Source of the DNA: Isosphaeraceae bacterium EP7
GTDB lineage: Bacteria > Planctomycetota > Planctomycetia > Isosphaerales > Isosphaeraceae
DNA: 64,000 nucleotides
Direction of reading: 5' to 3'
NCBI GenBank assembly: GCA_038400315.1
Contig: CP151667.1
Span: forward strand, 1,685,174 to 1,749,173
Shown here: positions 10,219 through 20,379 of the stretch, in pieces
Numbering within the stretch: the stretch's first letter is position 1
Layout: the number at the start of each line of letters is the position of its first letter
The notes under the pieces: model-generated
The model's database searches: none
What the model was told of the DNA's origin: nothing
What the model saw: only the letters and a program-made list of their open reading frames with translations
Program-made: the position numbers and the translations under genes

Positions 10219-13200
10219 TCAATCCTTCGAAGCCGGCTGGGCGCCGTCGTTGCGGGGGGTGAGCAGAACCGTCTTCAGGTCGAAGACGGCGTTGTTGATG
10301 GGCCCGTCGGCGCGGATGTCCAGCGTCTGACGCCCGGCGTCGAGGTGGACCTCGGCGACGAAGGCGGTCCGGTAGCGGTCCCACGAACCGGGGGCCGTGG
10401 GGCCGACGACGGACGAGAATTCGCGGCCGGGGATGCGGATCAGGTAGCGATTTCCGGCCGATTCGTCGGGGCAGGCCCACTCGATCGAGAGGGTATAAGT
10501 TCCCTCCCTGGCGACGTCGAGCGACCAGGAAGCTCGATCGCTCGGGGACGACCAGAAGCCGAGATTCGCATGCTCGGGCTCGAACGCGAGCGTGTCTCCA
10601 TAGATCGATGCGGCGCTCGCCACCAGCCGGATCGAGCCGTCGGCCTGCTGGGCGACGGTGCGGGGCGTGTTGCCGGGGAACGACCTGGGGGCCGCGCCCT
10701 GGCCTCTCAGATAGGCGACGAGGTCGGCGAGCTCGCCCGGCTTGAGGTCGCGCTCTAGCCCTTCGGGCATGAGTGACTTGCCGCCGAACTTGAGGGCTTC
10801 GATGTCGGCGCGGAGGAGGACGTCGAGGCGACCGCCGGCCGACTTGAGGGTGACGGCGTTGGCGGTCTCCGATGCCAGGATTCCGCTCAGGACGCGGCCA
10901 TCGGAGAGCGCGGCGGAGGCCTCGACATAGCGGGCGTCGACGTCGCGGTTGGGGTCGAAGATCGCGGCGAGCAGCCCTTGCGGCGAGAGGTCGGTGAGCG
11001 CGGCCAGGTCGGGGCCGACTTCGTGGCCCACACCGCCCAGCTTGTGGCAGGTCGAGCAGAGCCGGCCGAAGACGACGGCCCCCTTCTCGACACTGCCCGC
11101 GCCGCTCCCTTCTTCGAGCCTCGCGGCGACCAGCTCAGCGCGGGCGGTGTCGCGGCCGAGGCCGGGGAGCGTCTGGGCGCGGGCGCGGATGGCGTCGTCG
11201 GGGTGATCGACGAGCTGTTTGCGGCGTCCCGCGTCGATCGATCCGGCGGGGATCAGGTTCTTCGCCAGGGCGTCGAGCAGGAGTGACGTCGAGCCGGGTC
11301 GAGCGAGGAGCGCGTCGAGCAGGTCGCCGCGATCGGCCGGGGGGAGGGCCGGCCAGGCGGCGAGGAGCCTGGCACCGGCGTCAGGGTCGTCGATCCTGGC
11401 GAGCCGGGCGATGGCTGCGGACCGGAGCGCGGGCGGGGCCTCGGCGGTCAGGAAGCTGGAAACAAGGGCGAGATCGGCGGGGAGCTTGCGAGGTTCGCGG
11501 CCGAGAAGACGGACGGCGAGGGCGCGGTCATCGTCGGGGATGGACTCGCGTCCGACGATCTGACGCGCGACGCCGAAGGTCGGGAGGAGGGGGGAGAGGT
11601 CGAGGTGGCGGCTCTCGGCGAGCTCGGCCAGCGCGGAGAGCCGCCAGGTCTGGGGATGCTCCGGATCGAGCTTCGCGAGAAGCGGGAAGAGGCCAGCGAG
11701 CGCCTTCGCGGTGCCCGGCGTGGCGGGCGCCGCGGCCAGCGTGGCGACGAGCGGGCTGACGAGTCGAGAGTCGGGCGTGCCCTGGCCGGCCGCCCCGAGC
11801 ACGGCGGAGAGGACCTCGGCCGGGAGCCTGAATGCGGAGCTGAGCACGGCTCCCCGGATCCATTCGTCTTCGGGATCGCGGAGGGCGATGCGGGCGAGGG
11901 CCGCGGCGGAATGGGGATCATTGGACGCGCCGAGGGAGAGGGCGAGCTGATAACGGACGATGAGTGCGGGGTCGGATTCGAGGGCCAGGAGGCCTTCGAG
12001 GATGATGGATCTGCCGGCGACGCGGCGCCCCGACAAAAGGACTGCGTGACGCCGGACTCTGGCGTCGAAGTCCTTGAACGATGCAATCAGGAGGGTGTCG
12101 GGCAGCGATCCGAGGGTGTCGAGGATGCCGAGGGCCTGGAGGCGGACGCTCGGGCGGGGCGAGTTGGCGGCGAGGCGTGCCAGGGTCGGGACGGCCAGCG
12201 TGTCGGCACGGTGGAGGAGCAAGCGATGGACGGTGTCGCGGCGGGTGCCGCTGGAATCGTCAAGCGCGGCGGCGAGGGCCGGCGTGTCGAGGGTTTCGAG
12301 GCTGGCGGGGGCGTGGCGCGAGGCGTCGGCCTGTCGCGTGACGCGATAGATGCGGCCGAGGTCGGCGCCGGCGCGGACGTCGAGGGTGGCGAGCTGATCG
12401 GGGCTGATCCAGCGAGGGTGTTCGATGACGTGCCGGTACATGTCGACGACGTAGAGGGCGCCGTCGGGACCGGTGCGGGCCTGGACGGGCCGGGACCAGG
12501 GGTCGGTGGAGGCGAAGAATTCTTGATTGTCTGGGGTGAGTGCGCGTTGACCGGCGAATGTGACGCCGTCGTCGGTGAGGGTCTCGCGGTGAACGAGGTT
12601 GTGGACGGGCTCGCAGACGAAGAGGTTGTTCTGGTATTCGGGGCCGAGGGAGTCGCCCCGGTAAATGCAGATCCCGCACGCTGAAGTGGCGTAATTCAGG
12701 CTCTCGGGGTGGTTGAATCGCTCCTGCGGGGTGCTCGCCGGATAGAGCTTGTTGGGGTCCTCGGATCGGGGGACGTAGACGGACGGGTCGGGGGTGGCGA
12801 CGCGCGGATTACGTCGCGCGGCGTCGTCGGGGAAGGGGAAGTGATTGGCCAGGGCGCTGTTGCTGCACCCGAAGGCGTTGCCCCAGTCGTCGCGGACCCG
12901 GCCCTGCTGGCTGAGGCCCGAGACGGGCTCGACGGTGCCGCGGTCGGGGTCGAACCGGAGGTCACGGCCGCCGAGGTCGACGACCTGGCCGGTGAGGGTG
13001 GACCTGATCGACCCGCCGAGCAGCCCGTTGGCGGCGTGGACCAGGCCGTCGAGGCCGAGGTGGAGTCCGTTGATGCGAGCCTGATAGTTCTCGGAGTTGA
13101 AGCCTTCGAAGAGCACCCTGCGGATGTCGGCCTTGCCGTCGCCGTCGGTGTCCTCGGCGTAGAGGATCTCGGGGGCGGCACAGATGAGCACGCCCTTACG

Positions 13201-14844
13201 CCAGGCCATGATCCCGGTGGGGAAGGGGAGGTCGTCGAGGAGGGTCGTCGCGGTGTCATATCGGCCGTCGCCGTCGGCGTCCCTGAGCCGCTTGACGCGG
13301 CCTCCGGGCTTGAACTTGCGGTCGAGGCCTGTGGGGTAGTCGTACATCTCGCAGACCCAGAGCGAGCCGTCCCCCCCCCAGTCGATGGCGACTGGGGAGG
13401 TGACCAGGGGCTCGGCAGCGACGAGTTCGGCCTTCAGGCCGGGCGGGAGCTTGATCGACCTGCGCGACTGATCGGGCGTCTTGGGAGCGGTCCCTTTGAC
13501 CGGGGCTTGCGCCTTCGCGTGGAACTTCGGCGGCGAGATGGCGAGGACCTGCGCGATGATCGCGTCCTCGACGCCGGGCTTGAGACGGGTGGGCCAGCCG
13601 TAGTAAGCCATCGCGCCGATGGCCTCGTAGCCGCCTTCGCGCAGGATGCGCTCGGAGGGGATATAGCAGGGATCGTCATTTGTGTATGCGACGACCCAGA
13701 GCCGGGCGGGATCGAGTTCCTTCTTGAGACGCAGGACGTAGTCGACCACGACCTCGCCGGGGAGGAAGACCATCAAGAGGTCGTCATCGAAGGCCCAGGT
13801 CTGGACGGAGTAGGGGATGGAATCGATGGGGGGCGTTCCGGCCTCAAGCTGCTTCAGATAGTTGGATGCGTTGTAGCCTGGGGCACCGCCGGCCTTGATG
13901 GTTTCGAGATACTGCTCGCGGGTGGGGAGGGTGTCGAATGGGAGGCGGAACGACTTGAGAGTCGCGGCGGGGGGACCTTCCAGGGGTTTCAGCGGGCCGG
14001 CGATGAGTCGCGCAACCTCCTTGCCGAGCTTCTCTCCGTGGGCGTTGACGACGGCCTTGCCGGGCGTGCCTCGAAGCTTGGGGTTGGCGTCGGCCCCGCA
14101 GCCGACGATGGTCAGGGCGACGACGCCGGGGTGGTCACGCTCGATGGCGGCCTGCGCGACGCCGGCCCAGTCGGCGTGAATCGTGTTCTCCGATGGGTCC
14201 ATGGTGGTGCAATGGCATGCGTAATTGACGAGCACCGCGCGGGGCTTGCCGTCCGTCCCGCGGGCGACGAGGACCGGGACGGAGTGATCGACGGGGCCGC
14301 CCTTGGTCCGGCGGTTCTCGGCGAAGTCGACCGAGCCTTGCGACCAGCCGAGGGTGGCCGGGGATCGGGCGGCGAGGGCGTCCAGGCAGACCTTCTCCAG
14401 CTTGTCCGCGAGGCCGACCGTGTAGCGATCGATCGTGGACTGCTCGAGATCGGTATACTTTCGTCCGAAGATATTCGGCGCGAGGCCCGTGATGCAGGGG
14501 GCGCTGTGGGTGTGCGAGGCGGAGACGGTGAGCCGTTCTCGGGGCAGGCCGACCTTCTTCTGGAGCCGGGCCGAGAGGTCGGCGACGAGGTCGTCGGTGA
14601 CCCCGAGGAGGTCCGCCGAGAGGAGCAGGACGGGCCCCTGGGCGTCCGATCCGATGGCGATCGCCTTGGCGCGGATCGGCTGGTCGATCCCCTTGGAGGG
14701 GCCGGAACGTCCGAGGTAGCCGTGCAGGCGGATGGGCCCATCGGGAGAAATGTCGACCTGCGCGACCCCGACGTCGACGGCCAGGGCCGTTCCATTCATC
14801 GTCGCGAGGGAGAGCAGAAGGATTGCCGCGAGCCGGGATTGCAT
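10219..14844 (-). CDS. Giant secreted fusion: ceramidase-like / PVC dehydrogenase / HEAT / c-type cytochrome / binding domain
   Basis: A 1541-residue exported protein with a cleavable signal (MQSRLAAILLLSLATMNGTALA). Residues about 23-450 resemble the neutral/alkaline ceramidase N-terminal domain: SASHTHSAP (108-116) and a His/Cys-rich CHCTTMDPSENTIHADW carry likely metal ligands. About 470-870 is the planctomycete membrane-bound dehydrogenase (beta-propeller) domain with calcium-like DADGDGRYD and DTDGDGKAD loops. About 880-1200 consists of HEAT-like repeats. A haem c site CSTCH is at 1263-1267 with LMPEG as likely axial Met. The last ~170 residues look like a carbohydrate-binding beta-sandwich. 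PVC dehydrogenases with HEAT and CxxCH are well known; the ceramidase part in the same chain is the unusual element. The substrate is unknown. Confidence 0.87.
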   Translation of the reverse strand: MQSRLAAILLLSLATMNGTALAVDVGVAQVDISPDGPIRLHGYLGRSGPSKGIDQPIRAKAIAIGSDAQGPVLLLSADLLGVTDDLVADLSARLQKKVGLPRERLTVSASHTHSAPCITGLAPNIFGRKYTDLEQSTIDRYTVGLADKLEKVCLDALAARSPATLGWSQGSVDFAENRRTKGGPVDHSVPVLVARGTDGKPRAVLVNYACHCTTMDPSENTIHADWAGVAQAAIERDHPGVVALTIVGCGADANPKLRGTPGKAVVNAHGEKLGKEVARLIAGPLKPLEGPPAATLKSFRLPFDTLPTREQYLETIKAGGAPGYNASNYLKQLEAGTPPIDSIPYSVQTWAFDDDLLMVFLPGEVVVDYVLRLKKELDPARLWVVAYTNDDPCYIPSERILREGGYEAIGAMAYYGWPTRLKPGVEDAIIAQVLAISPPKFHAKAQAPVKGTAPKTPDQSRRSIKLPPGLKAELVAAEPLVTSPVAIDWGGDGSLWVCEMYDYPTGLDRKFKPGGRVKRLRDADGDGRYDTATTLLDDLPFPTGIMAWRKGVLICAAPEILYAEDTDGDGKADIRRVLFEGFNSENYQARINGLHLGLDGLVHAANGLLGGSIRSTLTGQVVDLGGRDLRFDPDRGTVEPVSGLSQQGRVRDDWGNAFGCSNSALANHFPFPDDAARRNPRVATPDPSVYVPRSEDPNKLYPASTPQERFNHPESLNYATSACGICIYRGDSLGPEYQNNLFVCEPVHNLVHRETLTDDGVTFAGQRALTPDNQEFFASTDPWSRPVQARTGPDGALYVVDMYRHVIEHPRWISPDQLATLDVRAGADLGRIYRVTRQADASRHAPASLETLDTPALAAALDDSSGTRRDTVHRLLLHRADTLAVPTLARLAANSPRPSVRLQALGILDTLGSLPDTLLIASFKDFDARVRRHAVLLSGRRVAGRSIILEGLLALESDPALIVRYQLALSLGASNDPHSAAALARIALRDPEDEWIRGAVLSSAFRLPAEVLSAVLGAAGQGTPDSRLVSPLVATLAAAPATPGTAKALAGLFPLLAKLDPEHPQTWRLSALAELAESRHLDLSPLLPTFGVARQIVGRESIPDDDRALAVRLLGREPRKLPADLALVSSFLTAEAPPALRSAAIARLARIDDPDAGARLLAAWPALPPADRGDLLDALLARPGSTSLLLDALAKNLIPAGSIDAGRRKQLVDHPDDAIRARAQTLPGLGRDTARAELVAARLEEGSGAGSVEKGAVVFGRLCSTCHKLGGVGHEVGPDLAALTDLSPQGLLAAIFDPNRDVDARYVEASAALSDGRVLSGILASETANAVTLKSAGGRLDVLLRADIEALKFGGKSLMPEGLERDLKPGELADLVAYLRGQGAAPRSFPGNTPRTVAQQADGSIRLVASAASIYGDTLAFEPEHANLGFWSSPSDRASWSLDVAREGTYTLSIEWACPDESAGNRYLIRIPGREFSSVVGPTAPGSWDRYRTAFVAEVHLDAGRQTLDIRADGPINNAVFDLKTVLLTPRNDGAQPASKD

Positions 14845-16357: not shown

Positions 16358-17269
16358 TCAACGCATGCCGAATCGCGAGAAGACAGCCGCGTGGTCGGAG
16401 GGCCAGCGGGTGGCGTGGCGGTCCACCACGGTCGAGGCTTCGACGTCGAGGGCATCCCCCTTCCAGAAGATGAAATCGATGCGGTCCTGGATCTGATCAG
16501 GGAAGCGCGGCGACCAGGTCCGGTCCTTCGATCGGTCGGCCTCGGGGTTGGCGACGCGGTAAGCGTCGCGAAAGCCAGCAGCCTCGATGATCGCGGTGAC
16601 GGGCCAGCGGACGGGGGGACCGAATCGGGCTCGATTCGCCTCGGTATAATCGAGGTGCGAGTTGCTGTTGAAGTCTCCGGCGAGGATGACCGGGACGCCT
16701 GGAAGGTCGGCCATCTGGTCCTTGATGCCGTCGAGGATCGCACGCACCTCGACGGCGCGGGTGGGCCCGTCGGCGGCGATGAGGTCGGCGGGCGACCTGC
16801 CGTCGCGCGAGCGAGGGTCGGTCCAGATGTCGTCGACGTAGTGAATCCAGGCGGTGAAGACGGCGAATTGCCGGCCGTCGGGGCGCTCGATGAGGGCGCC
16901 GACGCAGTGGAACGGCTTGTAAACGGACAGGTCGCGCTTGATGGGCCAGCGGCTGAGGATCGAGACGTTGGTGCCGCGCGGGTGGAACGCATAGCCGAGG
17001 TGGTCGGCGATCACCTGGCCGCTGCCGTAGGTCTCGACCATGGCGACCACGTCGGCCTCCGTGGCCTTGATGACGTCGGCGATGCTCTTCTGCTTGGCCG
17101 CCTTGACGGCGGGATCAGTCGCCGACTTGGCCTCGTCGCCGCCGTTCCAGATGTTCCAGGCGAGGACGCGGAGGTGGTCGGCGGGACCTGCCGCGAGGGT
17201 CGCACGGGAACAGGCGAACAGGACGGCGAGGGCGAACGCGGTCGTGGATCGCGACCCTTGGTGGATCAT
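16358..17269 (-). CDS. Secreted endonuclease/exonuclease/phosphatase (EEP) family protein
   Basis: This is a 303-residue protein with a signal peptide (MIHQGSRSTTAFALAVLFACSRATLAAG) and the EEP/DNase I fold. Visible catalytic landmarks are VLAWNIWNGG near residue 36 (Asn), VVAMVET (metal-binding Glu), a central ILAGDFNSNSHLDY (Asp and Asn), and the C-terminal RIDFIFWKGD plus PSDHAAVFS with the essential Asp-His. The family covers nucleases, sphingomyelinases and inositol phosphatases; the signal peptide points to an extracytoplasmic phosphodiesterase. It lies 59 bp downstream of the M1-barrel gene on the same strand and may share its transcript. Confidence 0.87.
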   Translation of the reverse strand: MIHQGSRSTTAFALAVLFACSRATLAAGPADHLRVLAWNIWNGGDEAKSATDPAVKAAKQKSIADVIKATEADVVAMVETYGSGQVIADHLGYAFHPRGTNVSILSRWPIKRDLSVYKPFHCVGALIERPDGRQFAVFTAWIHYVDDIWTDPRSRDGRSPADLIAADGPTRAVEVRAILDGIKDQMADLPGVPVILAGDFNSNSHLDYTEANRARFGPPVRWPVTAIIEAAGFRDAYRVANPEADRSKDRTWSPRFPDQIQDRIDFIFWKGDALDVEASTVVDRHATRWPSDHAAVFSRFGMR

Positions 17270-17328: not shown

Positions 17329-20253
17329 TCAGAAGACCTGATTGAGCCCCATCCAGAGAATCGGGCCGCGGCCGGTGCCGATGGGCTGGGCGATATCCAG
17401 GCGGAGAGTGGCGCGTTCCAGGAAGGAGAAGAGGGTGGTGTCCAGGCGGAGGCCGACTCCGATGCCGCTGACGACGCCCTGGTCTTTTCCGCCGAGGAAC
17501 GACTGGCCGACGTCGTAGAAGACGGTGCCGAAGAGGTTGCGGAAGGAGAGGGCGTGGTCCATCACGTCGCGGTCGATGTTGCGCCACAGGGGCGCACGCC
17601 ATTCGAGCGTGATCAGCCAGACGGCGTTGCCGATGTCCTGGCTGAGGTCGAGAGCGCGGAGTCGACGGCCGCCGCCCAGCCGGAAATAGGGCTCGGTGTC
17701 TGGGAAGCCGATGCCGCCGTAGGCTCGGAAGGCGAACCGCGAGCGTGAGAAGTAGCCCAGGCCCTCGGGAAGCGGCCGGACGATGCCGTACTCGGCGGAG
17801 ATGCGCTCGTAGCTATACTGGGATCCGAATGCCTTGAATCCATACTCGGCGTTGAGGTCGATGAGCTGGCCGCCGACGGGGTCCCAGAACGGGAAGAGGG
17901 TATTCAGCCGGTAGCGGGCGCCCACGGCGGTGAGGCGGCCGTTGACCGGCCGGCCGTCGTCGCCGGCCCAGAATTCATTGCCATTGCCCAGGTAGATCTC
18001 GGCGAACCCCTGGTCGTCGGCCAGGAAGCTGGAACTCTCCAGGAAGCGGTGGCGGAGGAAGATGCGCCCGCCCGAATGCCGTTTGTCATTGTAGAAGTTG
18101 TACATGCCCTGTTCATAGAAGACGCCGACGGCATCCTTGGGCCCGGGCAGGTGGAAGAGGGTGGCCTGGCCGCCGAAGATGGCCTCGTTGAGCGCGGGCT
18201 CGACGCCGGCCCAGCCGATGATCTGCCACTTCTCCAGCCGCTGGAAACCGGCCTTGAAGCCGCCGCGGGCGTACTGGTCGATGAACGGGCCTGCAACGAG
18301 GCTGGGCTTGTCGTAGGCCTGGAACTGGCCGGCGGTGTCCAATGGAGTCATGAACGGCGTGACGCGCCAGGCGACCTCGGGCTTCCATCGGTTGTTGTCG
18401 GGCACGGCATCGAGGAGTGCGTGCTCGGGGTCGACGATCACCTGCGTGGGGGCTCCGGGCGCGACCAGCCGGACGGTCCAGGTCTTGCCGTCGCGGTCGA
18501 CCTTGGCTCCCGGGATCTCGTAATGTTCGAGCTCGGGCCAGATGGGGACGCGGACTTCCGACTCCCCGGCGCGGCACATCACGACGGTGGGCTCGACCAT
18601 CTCGCCGACGTGGGAGAGCTGCACGGTGACATCTCGGCCGGCCTGGGTGGTGAGCCCTGTCTTGACCGACGCGACCGACCAGTCGCCGTCCTTGTGCTCC
18701 ACGAGCCAGCCGTCGAGGAACGCGGGCCAGTGACCTTCGGGATCGAATTCATTAAGCTCGCGCTTCAGGTCGGCATACGAGAACGTCTTGTAGGCGTAGT
18801 CGCGGTAGATATCCTGGAAGAAGGCGAAGAAGCGTTCGGGACCGAGGCGGTTGTGGACCATCTCGACGACCTTACCGCCGCGGTCATACGCGAGGCAGAA
18901 GAGGTTGCCGAGGTTGCCCATCTCGTTGATGTCGCGGAGAGCAGAGCCGGTGCCACCGCGGGCGCGCCAGCCGTAATAGCCGGAGAGGCGCATGTCCTCG
19001 CGGCCCACGGTGGGGAGCCAGTTGAGGGCGGTCGGCCAGACGATGAGCGGTGCGTTGCGGCCGTTCTTGGAGTCGAGCCGCAGGGCGGTGAAGCAGGTCA
19101 CGAGCCCTTCGTCCATGAACGTCTCGCGGAAGCCGTCTGTGCCGACGACGTTCCAGAACCACTGGTGGCAGGTCTCGTGCGTGGCCAGGTGTTCGATGTA
19201 GCGGCGGCCGACCGAGGGGAGGCGTAAAACGCGGTCGTCGATGAAGACGAGGCCCGAGCACTCGTTGCCGTTCCAGCCGAAGAAGCCGGGCGCCATCTCG
19301 TATTCTTCGTCGTAGTAGGGCCCGAACCAGCGCTCGTACTGGGGGATGACCTCGCAGGCGGAGTCGAGCAGATAGGCGGCGTTGTCGTGGTGCTCGGGCA
19401 GGGAGACGACCCGTACGAGGGTGGAGCCGGCGCGACGCTGGTTGACCTCGAACCTGTTGGAGCAGGCCAGGGCGAAGTCGCGCGAGGGGCTGCCGCCGAT
19501 GGTGATCAGCTTGCGGCCGGGCGCCGAGGGCTGCTCCTCCGAGATCCGCCCCGTGGACGCGACGACCTGATCTTTCGGAAGGTCGAAGGTGACGTTGTAG
19601 TGCGACGCCTCCTGGTGCCAGGGCTGGTGCCAGGGGACGAATGGGGTGCGCGACCACCCGCCGTCGTCGTGATAGGCCAGGACCGGATACCAGTTCATCA
19701 GGTAGGTGACGTCGCGATAGTGGCCCCAGCGCCCCCACTTCTCGGGCAGCGAGAGGGTGAAGTCGACCTCGCACTCGATCGACTTGCCGGGCGCCAGCGG
19801 CCCCGAGAGGGGGACCGACATCAGGGTGTCGATCTTGGGGTCGAAGTCATGGCGGGCCGGCTTGCCCGCGATCCGGACCTGGGAGACTTCCAGGCGTCGG
19901 CCCTGGGCGTCGAGCGCCTCGTCGGGGCTGAGTCGGAGGACTTCGAGCGTCTTGGACAAGGCGGGGATGTCGGCGGGGTCGACCTTGAATCGCGGGTAGA
20001 CGTGGAAGACCAGCTCGTTCACGTCCACCTTGGAGCGGTTGGTGAACTTGACGACCTGGCTGGCGCCGACGCTCTTGGCATCGAGGTCGAGGCGGGCGTT
20101 GATCCGATATTCGGGGAGGCCCGCGGGGATCGCGGGTCGCAGGGGAGGGCCGAGCGGGACGGGCTCGTCGGCCAAGCCGTTGCTACCGATCAAGGACGCC
20201 AGGGCGATCGCGAGGATGGCCTGCGTGCGGATTCCGCGGCGGATTCGGCTCAT
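17329..20253 (-). CDS. M1-family metallopeptidase fused to an outer-membrane beta-barrel
   Basis: A 974-residue exported protein with a signal peptide (basic start, then AILAIALASLIGSNGLADE). Residues about 45-580 form an M1 aminopeptidase-like unit: HETCH (359-363) gives two zinc His ligands and catalytic Glu, and E382 after exactly 18 residues is the third ligand. The usual GAMEN exopeptidase motif is replaced by GNECSGL. From about residue 640 the sequence changes to alternating aromatic/Gly beta-strands (GRIFLRHRFLESSSFLAD, LNAEYGFKAFGSQYSYERI) and ends in aromatic LNQVF, the pattern of Omp85-type barrels and a BAM signal. So a peptidase may be anchored in the outer membrane by its own barrel. 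ATG 20253 is chosen over GTG 20277. Confidence 0.85.
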   Translation of the reverse strand: MSRIRRGIRTQAILAIALASLIGSNGLADEPVPLGPPLRPAIPAGLPEYRINARLDLDAKSVGASQVVKFTNRSKVDVNELVFHVYPRFKVDPADIPALSKTLEVLRLSPDEALDAQGRRLEVSQVRIAGKPARHDFDPKIDTLMSVPLSGPLAPGKSIECEVDFTLSLPEKWGRWGHYRDVTYLMNWYPVLAYHDDGGWSRTPFVPWHQPWHQEASHYNVTFDLPKDQVVASTGRISEEQPSAPGRKLITIGGSPSRDFALACSNRFEVNQRRAGSTLVRVVSLPEHHDNAAYLLDSACEVIPQYERWFGPYYDEEYEMAPGFFGWNGNECSGLVFIDDRVLRLPSVGRRYIEHLATHETCHQWFWNVVGTDGFRETFMDEGLVTCFTALRLDSKNGRNAPLIVWPTALNWLPTVGREDMRLSGYYGWRARGGTGSALRDINEMGNLGNLFCLAYDRGGKVVEMVHNRLGPERFFAFFQDIYRDYAYKTFSYADLKRELNEFDPEGHWPAFLDGWLVEHKDGDWSVASVKTGLTTQAGRDVTVQLSHVGEMVEPTVVMCRAGESEVRVPIWPELEHYEIPGAKVDRDGKTWTVRLVAPGAPTQVIVDPEHALLDAVPDNNRWKPEVAWRVTPFMTPLDTAGQFQAYDKPSLVAGPFIDQYARGGFKAGFQRLEKWQIIGWAGVEPALNEAIFGGQATLFHLPGPKDAVGVFYEQGMYNFYNDKRHSGGRIFLRHRFLESSSFLADDQGFAEIYLGNGNEFWAGDDGRPVNGRLTAVGARYRLNTLFPFWDPVGGQLIDLNAEYGFKAFGSQYSYERISAEYGIVRPLPEGLGYFSRSRFAFRAYGGIGFPDTEPYFRLGGGRRLRALDLSQDIGNAVWLITLEWRAPLWRNIDRDVMDHALSFRNLFGTVFYDVGQSFLGGKDQGVVSGIGVGLRLDTTLFSFLERATLRLDIAQPIGTGRGPILWMGLNQVF

Positions 20254-20379
20254 CCTGCCCGCTGCCCTCTGCGACACGGTCGGGGCGCGCGGACGTGATG
20301 TCCGAGGGGGGCGCGGCCGCCGACTCGCCGGGGAGGTTAGCGGAAACGTAGGAAATCGAACAGCCGAAGCGATCGGCGA

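Follow-up and report, generated by a model that had tools for sequence, protein, structure and literature searches.

The fusion gene and its product

The window, by which is meant the whole 64,000-nucleotide stretch of DNA that was analysed, contains an unbroken minus-strand open reading frame at 17329..20253 (stop codon included) that starts with ATG and encodes a protein of 974 amino acids. An in-frame GTG at 20277 is a possible alternative start that would add eight amino acids. All features of this gene given below are likewise on the minus strand. The N-terminus shows a basic n-region and a hydrophobic core followed by NGLA/DEP, and the AlphaFold model forms a helix at residues 2-21; residues 1-29 (20167..20253) are therefore a probable Sec signal peptide.

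The first-pass annotation had read the gene product as a zinc M1 peptidase joined to an Omp85-like barrel. This architecture is confirmed by a Pfam M1 match, 16-stranded models, structural matches and invariant residues in both halves, and is supported by the open reading frame together with its orthologues. The whole fusion is conserved across five families of the class, which excludes a chance juxtaposition or a gene-call artefact.

The M1 peptidase half

Residues 45-607 align with known M1 structures, with the highest Z score (32.1) for TRI F3, followed by IRAP, ERAP1/2, PepN and LTA4H. Three domains can be delineated. The β-rich domain I spans residues 45-285 (19399..20121) in the model and in the structural alignments, which start at residue 45 for TRI F3, IRAP and ERAP1. 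The catalytic domain II comprises residues 286-519 (18697..19398) and is defined by the helices of the model and by a match to Pfam Peptidase_M1 (PF01433) at residues 295-502, with an E value of 5.8e-13 and a score of 49.4 bits against a gathering cut-off of 27.7. The same profile was matched by all 22 diverse members of the fusion family, above the cut-off in each of those listed singly. The third domain, residues 525-607 (18433..18681), is all-β and corresponds to the M1 domain III β-sandwich in the model and the structural alignment; it is not a POTRA domain. The helical domain IV is absent, and a short linker leads from domain III into the barrel.

The zinc site, HETCH-x18-E, lies at residues 359-382 (19108..19179), with HETCH occupying residues 359-363 and Glu382, which is the third zinc ligand, 18 residues further on. 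A second conserved segment, YDRGGKV (residues 456-462; 18868..18888), begins with Tyr456. An alignment of 39 sequences shows that His359, Glu360, His363, Glu382 and Tyr456 are invariant. In a pairwise alignment, Tyr456 coincides with the catalytic tyrosine of PSA, a role assigned to PSA Tyr438 (PMC10343166).

The segment equivalent to GAMEN is NGNECSGL, residues 328-335 (19249..19272), as located by pairwise alignment to PSA and by the 39-sequence alignment. GAMEN is the exopeptidase motif characteristic of M1 enzymes, although it is not universal among the bacterial members, and its glutamate binds the N-terminus of the substrate. Across the 39 sequences WNGN is invariant and the aligned motif reads NGNEC/S, in which Met and Asn are replaced and the glutamate, Glu331, is retained in 38. 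Thus, the observation that GAMEN is missing holds for the exact string and not for its glutamate. The altered specificity that had been deduced from it may be possible given the diverged motif, but the residue expected to bind the substrate N-terminus is kept. Nor is the divergence special to the fusion, as other open reading frames of the phylum with an M1 motif read GGMEY or GGMES at this position. One orthologue (L110, 5387-8353) has Gln at position 331 (PWNGNQNAG) and an intact zinc site. The complete M1 active site, as read from the sequence, suggests that the fusion protein trims residues from the N-termini of peptides.

The C-terminal barrel

Omp85 proteins assemble the outer membranes of bacteria and organelles, and their known partner domains are mostly POTRA domains. 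AlphaFold was run twice, once on the full-length protein, with 12 sequences, and once on residues 613-974 only. Each model contains 16 strands at the C-terminus, in agreement with the barrel that had been proposed for this region, which is assigned to residues 650-974 (17332..18306) from the two models and their structure matches. A Foldseek search of the PDB with the barrel-alone model returned TamA, BamA and mitochondrial Sam50, with E values of 1.6e-7 to 1.2e-5 among the matches listed. A structural aligner ranked E. coli TamA first for the same model (Z 21.6; 3.4 Å over 277 residues), with BamA and Sam50 next. As 12 sequences were usable, the confidence of the barrel-alone model is only moderate (pLDDT 69, pTM 0.72), and independent sequence evidence was sought for this reason.

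Omp85 proteins carry two signatures: the tip of loop L6 bears (V/I)RG(Y/F) and strand 13 bears (F/G)xDxG, with an Arg-Asp salt bridge linking the two (PMC4490367). The equivalent of the former is LRAL, residues 865-868 (17650..17661), located between modelled strands 11 and 12 and hence in loop L6; the latter is represented by FYDVG, residues 912-916 (17506..17520), on modelled strand 13. Arg866, Asp914 and Gly916 are invariant in the 39-sequence alignment and Phe912 is found in 38 sequences. Arg866 and the FxDxG motif make up what is called the lid-lock of Omp85 proteins. The residue that follows the L6 arginine is Gly in 17 sequences and Ala in 22, the latter including the members shown from the protein's own family. 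The final residue is Phe in 38 of the 39 sequences and Tyr in the remaining one, so that the terminal aromatic residue pointed out in the first-pass annotation is a feature of all of them.

Pfam analysis of the window protein alone detected no barrel domain, its sequence having diverged too far to match PF01103 (Omp85), and the NCBIfam Omp85 profile gave a weak match to residues 791-974 (E 6e-4) that is far under its cut-off. Among the 22 diverse orthologues, PF01103 matched 13 at an E value of 0.01 or better; the best E value was 1.7e-9 and several matches exceeded the curated cut-off. Taken together, the model matches, the signature residues of L6 and strand 13 and the Pfam matches of the orthologues identify the barrel as Omp85-type. 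A profile search for POTRA domains found no match in the 22 members, and the model shows residues 525-607 as all-β. Omp85 subfamilies that lack POTRA domains, 'noNterm' and 'Metallo', are on record (PMC4104836); the absence of POTRA therefore excludes the POTRA-bearing subfamilies and not the Omp85 superfamily.

Distribution and descent

The full or near-full fusion is present in 21 of the 45 genomes of the protein's own family and, at an E value of 1e-60, in 126 of the 397 sampled genomes of the class Planctomycetia, where it extends over five families. The rarity in planctomycetes that the first-pass annotation had supposed is therefore not supported. Singulisphaera acidiphila and Singulisphaera sp. 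GP187 are among the carriers. A sample of 392 genomes from the phylum yielded, besides the window, full-length matches only in two genomes of the same class. A tblastn search against plasmids returned only M1 domains without a barrel, none of the records reaching 80% coverage of the query, and no relative turned up when viral contigs were scanned.

Separate trees of the M1 half and of the barrel half each recover all five families. The pairwise distances of the two halves correlate at 0.93, part of which reflects shared ancestry. Given this distribution and the agreement between the trees, the gene looks like the product of one old fusion that was inherited vertically within Planctomycetia. 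Six genomes (G505, G532, G595, G598, G619 and G675) each match the fusion family twice over a long stretch, which suggests paralogues.

Genomic surroundings and other loci

FabF and aminotransferase genes lie upstream of the fusion gene in 4 of 11 relatives. Examination of the relatives' loci revealed no neighbour genes shared across families, and hence no hint of a substrate from the neighbourhood. Directly downstream of the fusion gene in the window, a minus-strand gene (16358-17269) encodes a putative exported protein of the endonuclease/exonuclease/phosphatase family, which was not found at the 12 relatives' loci examined. Another minus-strand gene of the window (10219-14844) encodes a single polypeptide of 1541 amino acids that comprises a neutral ceramidase N-terminal domain, DUF7133, HEAT repeats and a domain of the cytochrome c type. 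The genome also encodes one BamA with POTRA domains and gave no other match to the Omp85 profile, and the fusion protein is therefore not the main insertase.

Other open reading frames of the phylum that contain the M1 motif were considered as further fusions. In the long ones, apart from one orthologue (L092), the motif is found only from about residue 730 onwards, and their architecture is therefore a different one. They include planctomycete open reading frames of up to 1623 amino acids (L074-L080, L086, L087 and others), with the M1 motif at approximately residues 750-1090 and GGMEY or GGMEN. Two planctomycete proteins outside the fusion family (L088, 1473-4259; L089, 1442-4276) carry WD40-like (PD40) repeats followed by an Omp85 barrel. 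In L089, Peptidase_MA_2 also matches weakly and below threshold close to the N-terminus, with no HExxH. This may be a degenerate peptidase within a second kind of peptidase-Omp85 architecture.

Proposed location and function

Sequence, structural models and analogy to characterized proteins together point to an outer-membrane-anchored zinc exopeptidase with its M1 part in the periplasm, which we regard as the probable nature of the fusion protein. The signal peptide would direct export, and the C-terminal 16-stranded barrel, whose fold is predicted, would insert into the outer membrane. Domains I-III should then be held in the periplasm immediately beneath the barrel, to which they connect without an intervening POTRA domain. 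By analogy to TamA and BamA, in which L6 is on the outside and the two ends of the barrel point into the periplasm, the periplasmic location of the M1 domain is suggested by the even number of strands and by the placement of L6 between strands 11 and 12. Omp85 architecture in general and PlpD in particular suggest the same topology. Of the enzyme-Omp85 fusions found in the literature searched, PlpD alone had been studied in depth; export was once assumed for its enzyme, which was later demonstrated to remain in the periplasm (PMC11116518), and a tethered periplasmic exopeptidase is preferred here for this reason.

In such an arrangement the M1 part may cleave N-terminal residues from periplasmic peptides near the outer membrane. 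The barrel would first of all anchor the protein in the membrane, its outer face being closed, and would not form an open pore, as the insertase-type lid-lock residues are invariant. Anchoring would keep the peptidase at the sites of outer-membrane protein assembly or of peptide entry.

A narrower version of this explanation, which is possible and can be put forward tentatively, is that of an outer-membrane quality-control or assembly protease with a role like that of E. coli BepA at BAM, clearing or trimming misassembled proteins. A barrel of the BamA/TamA type is consistent with such a role, and the separate POTRA-bearing BamA would be a main insertase that the fusion protein could assist. 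Against this, M1 enzymes are exopeptidases, and the loci examined showed no neighbour common to the families.

The barrel could alternatively act as a peptide uptake channel, in which peptides would travel through the lumen to the M1 part for trimming, the active site being open at the barrel mouth in the absence of domain IV. The barrel does occupy the chain position that domain IV takes in full-length M1 enzymes, and the fused halves have stayed together and co-diverged. Nevertheless, the invariant lid-lock residues go with a closed outer face and no conserved transport partner is encoded nearby, so that an uptake channel appears doubtful. No more convincing, in our estimate, is a peptidase-gated channel, an unlikely arrangement in which the barrel replaces domain IV and, with its periplasmic mouth, makes up a wall of the active site or the way into it, where emerging peptides or unfolded outer-membrane proteins would be trimmed. 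If it were true, the Omp85 fold would gain a catalytic import or processing role that was previously not known.

The surface peptidase of the first-pass annotation, which corresponds to the older type Vd model with the M1 part crossing the outer membrane through the barrel to be exposed at the cell surface or set free from it, could draw on the translocases of the Omp85 superfamily such as FhaC and on the early view of PlpD (discussed in PMC11116518), but it is unlikely here, as the strand number and L6 position predict a periplasmic N-terminus, FxDxG is the insertase form as opposed to the GxDxG of the translocase FhaC (PMC4490367), a folded three-domain enzyme of ~560 residues far exceeds the lumen, and the enzyme domain of PlpD itself turned out to be periplasmic (PMC11116518).

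The anchored periplasmic exopeptidase, if correct, has implications beyond the locus. The fusion marks a predicted, testable outer-membrane protein for planctomycetes. The cell envelope of these bacteria was for a long time disputed. A conserved peptidase-Omp85 lineage would also add an enzyme-bearing architecture that the scheme of ten subfamilies published in 2014 does not contain (PMC4104836).

Comparison with known systems

The M1 peptidase and the Omp85 barrel are each known by sequence or fold. We could not find their combination described in the open-licence papers that were searched. The M1 half shares domains I-III, HExxH-x18-E, the tyrosine and the glutamate with the M1 aminopeptidases TRI F3, ERAP1/2, IRAP, PSA and E. 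coli PepN, and differs from them in having a barrel instead of the helical domain IV and NGNEC/S in place of GAMEN. A further M1 structure, PDB entry 6a8z, matches the fusion-family profile with an E value of 2.3e-7. This entry and 6iff represent a two-domain M1 metallopeptidase, the papers on which are cited in PMC10343166 and which we take to be M1dr of Deinococcus radiodurans. It is likewise an M1 enzyme without domain IV; presumably it is soluble and lacks both domain III and a barrel, whereas the fusion protein has both.

With the barrels of TamA and BamA, the fusion shares 16 strands, the L6 arginine, the strand-13 FxDxG and the C-terminal aromatic residue. In contrast to these proteins, it has no POTRA domains and carries an enzyme in their place, and its L6 motif reads RA rather than RG in its own family.

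The survey of Omp85 proteins by Heinz and Lithgow in 2014 described ten architectures, and the word 'peptidase' occurs nowhere in that paper (PMC4104836). The 'Metallo' subfamily of the survey resembles the fusion in that a metal-dependent enzyme domain precedes the barrel with no POTRA; that domain is PF00149, which the authors called a metalloprotease (PMC4104836). A profile search with PF00149 gave no match in the 22 fusion members. We take PF00149 to be the calcineurin-like phosphoesterase family.

A counterpart in organization is PlpD, the patatin-Omp85 protein of the so-called type Vd, in which a soluble enzyme is likewise N-terminal to an Omp85 barrel and resides in the periplasm (PMC11116518). 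PlpD has a patatin lipase and one POTRA domain; Pfam analysis found neither of these in the fusion protein, which has an M1 peptidase and, in agreement with the profile search of the 22 members, no POTRA. The fusion would be a second test case, after PlpD, for periplasmic retention in enzyme-Omp85 fusions.
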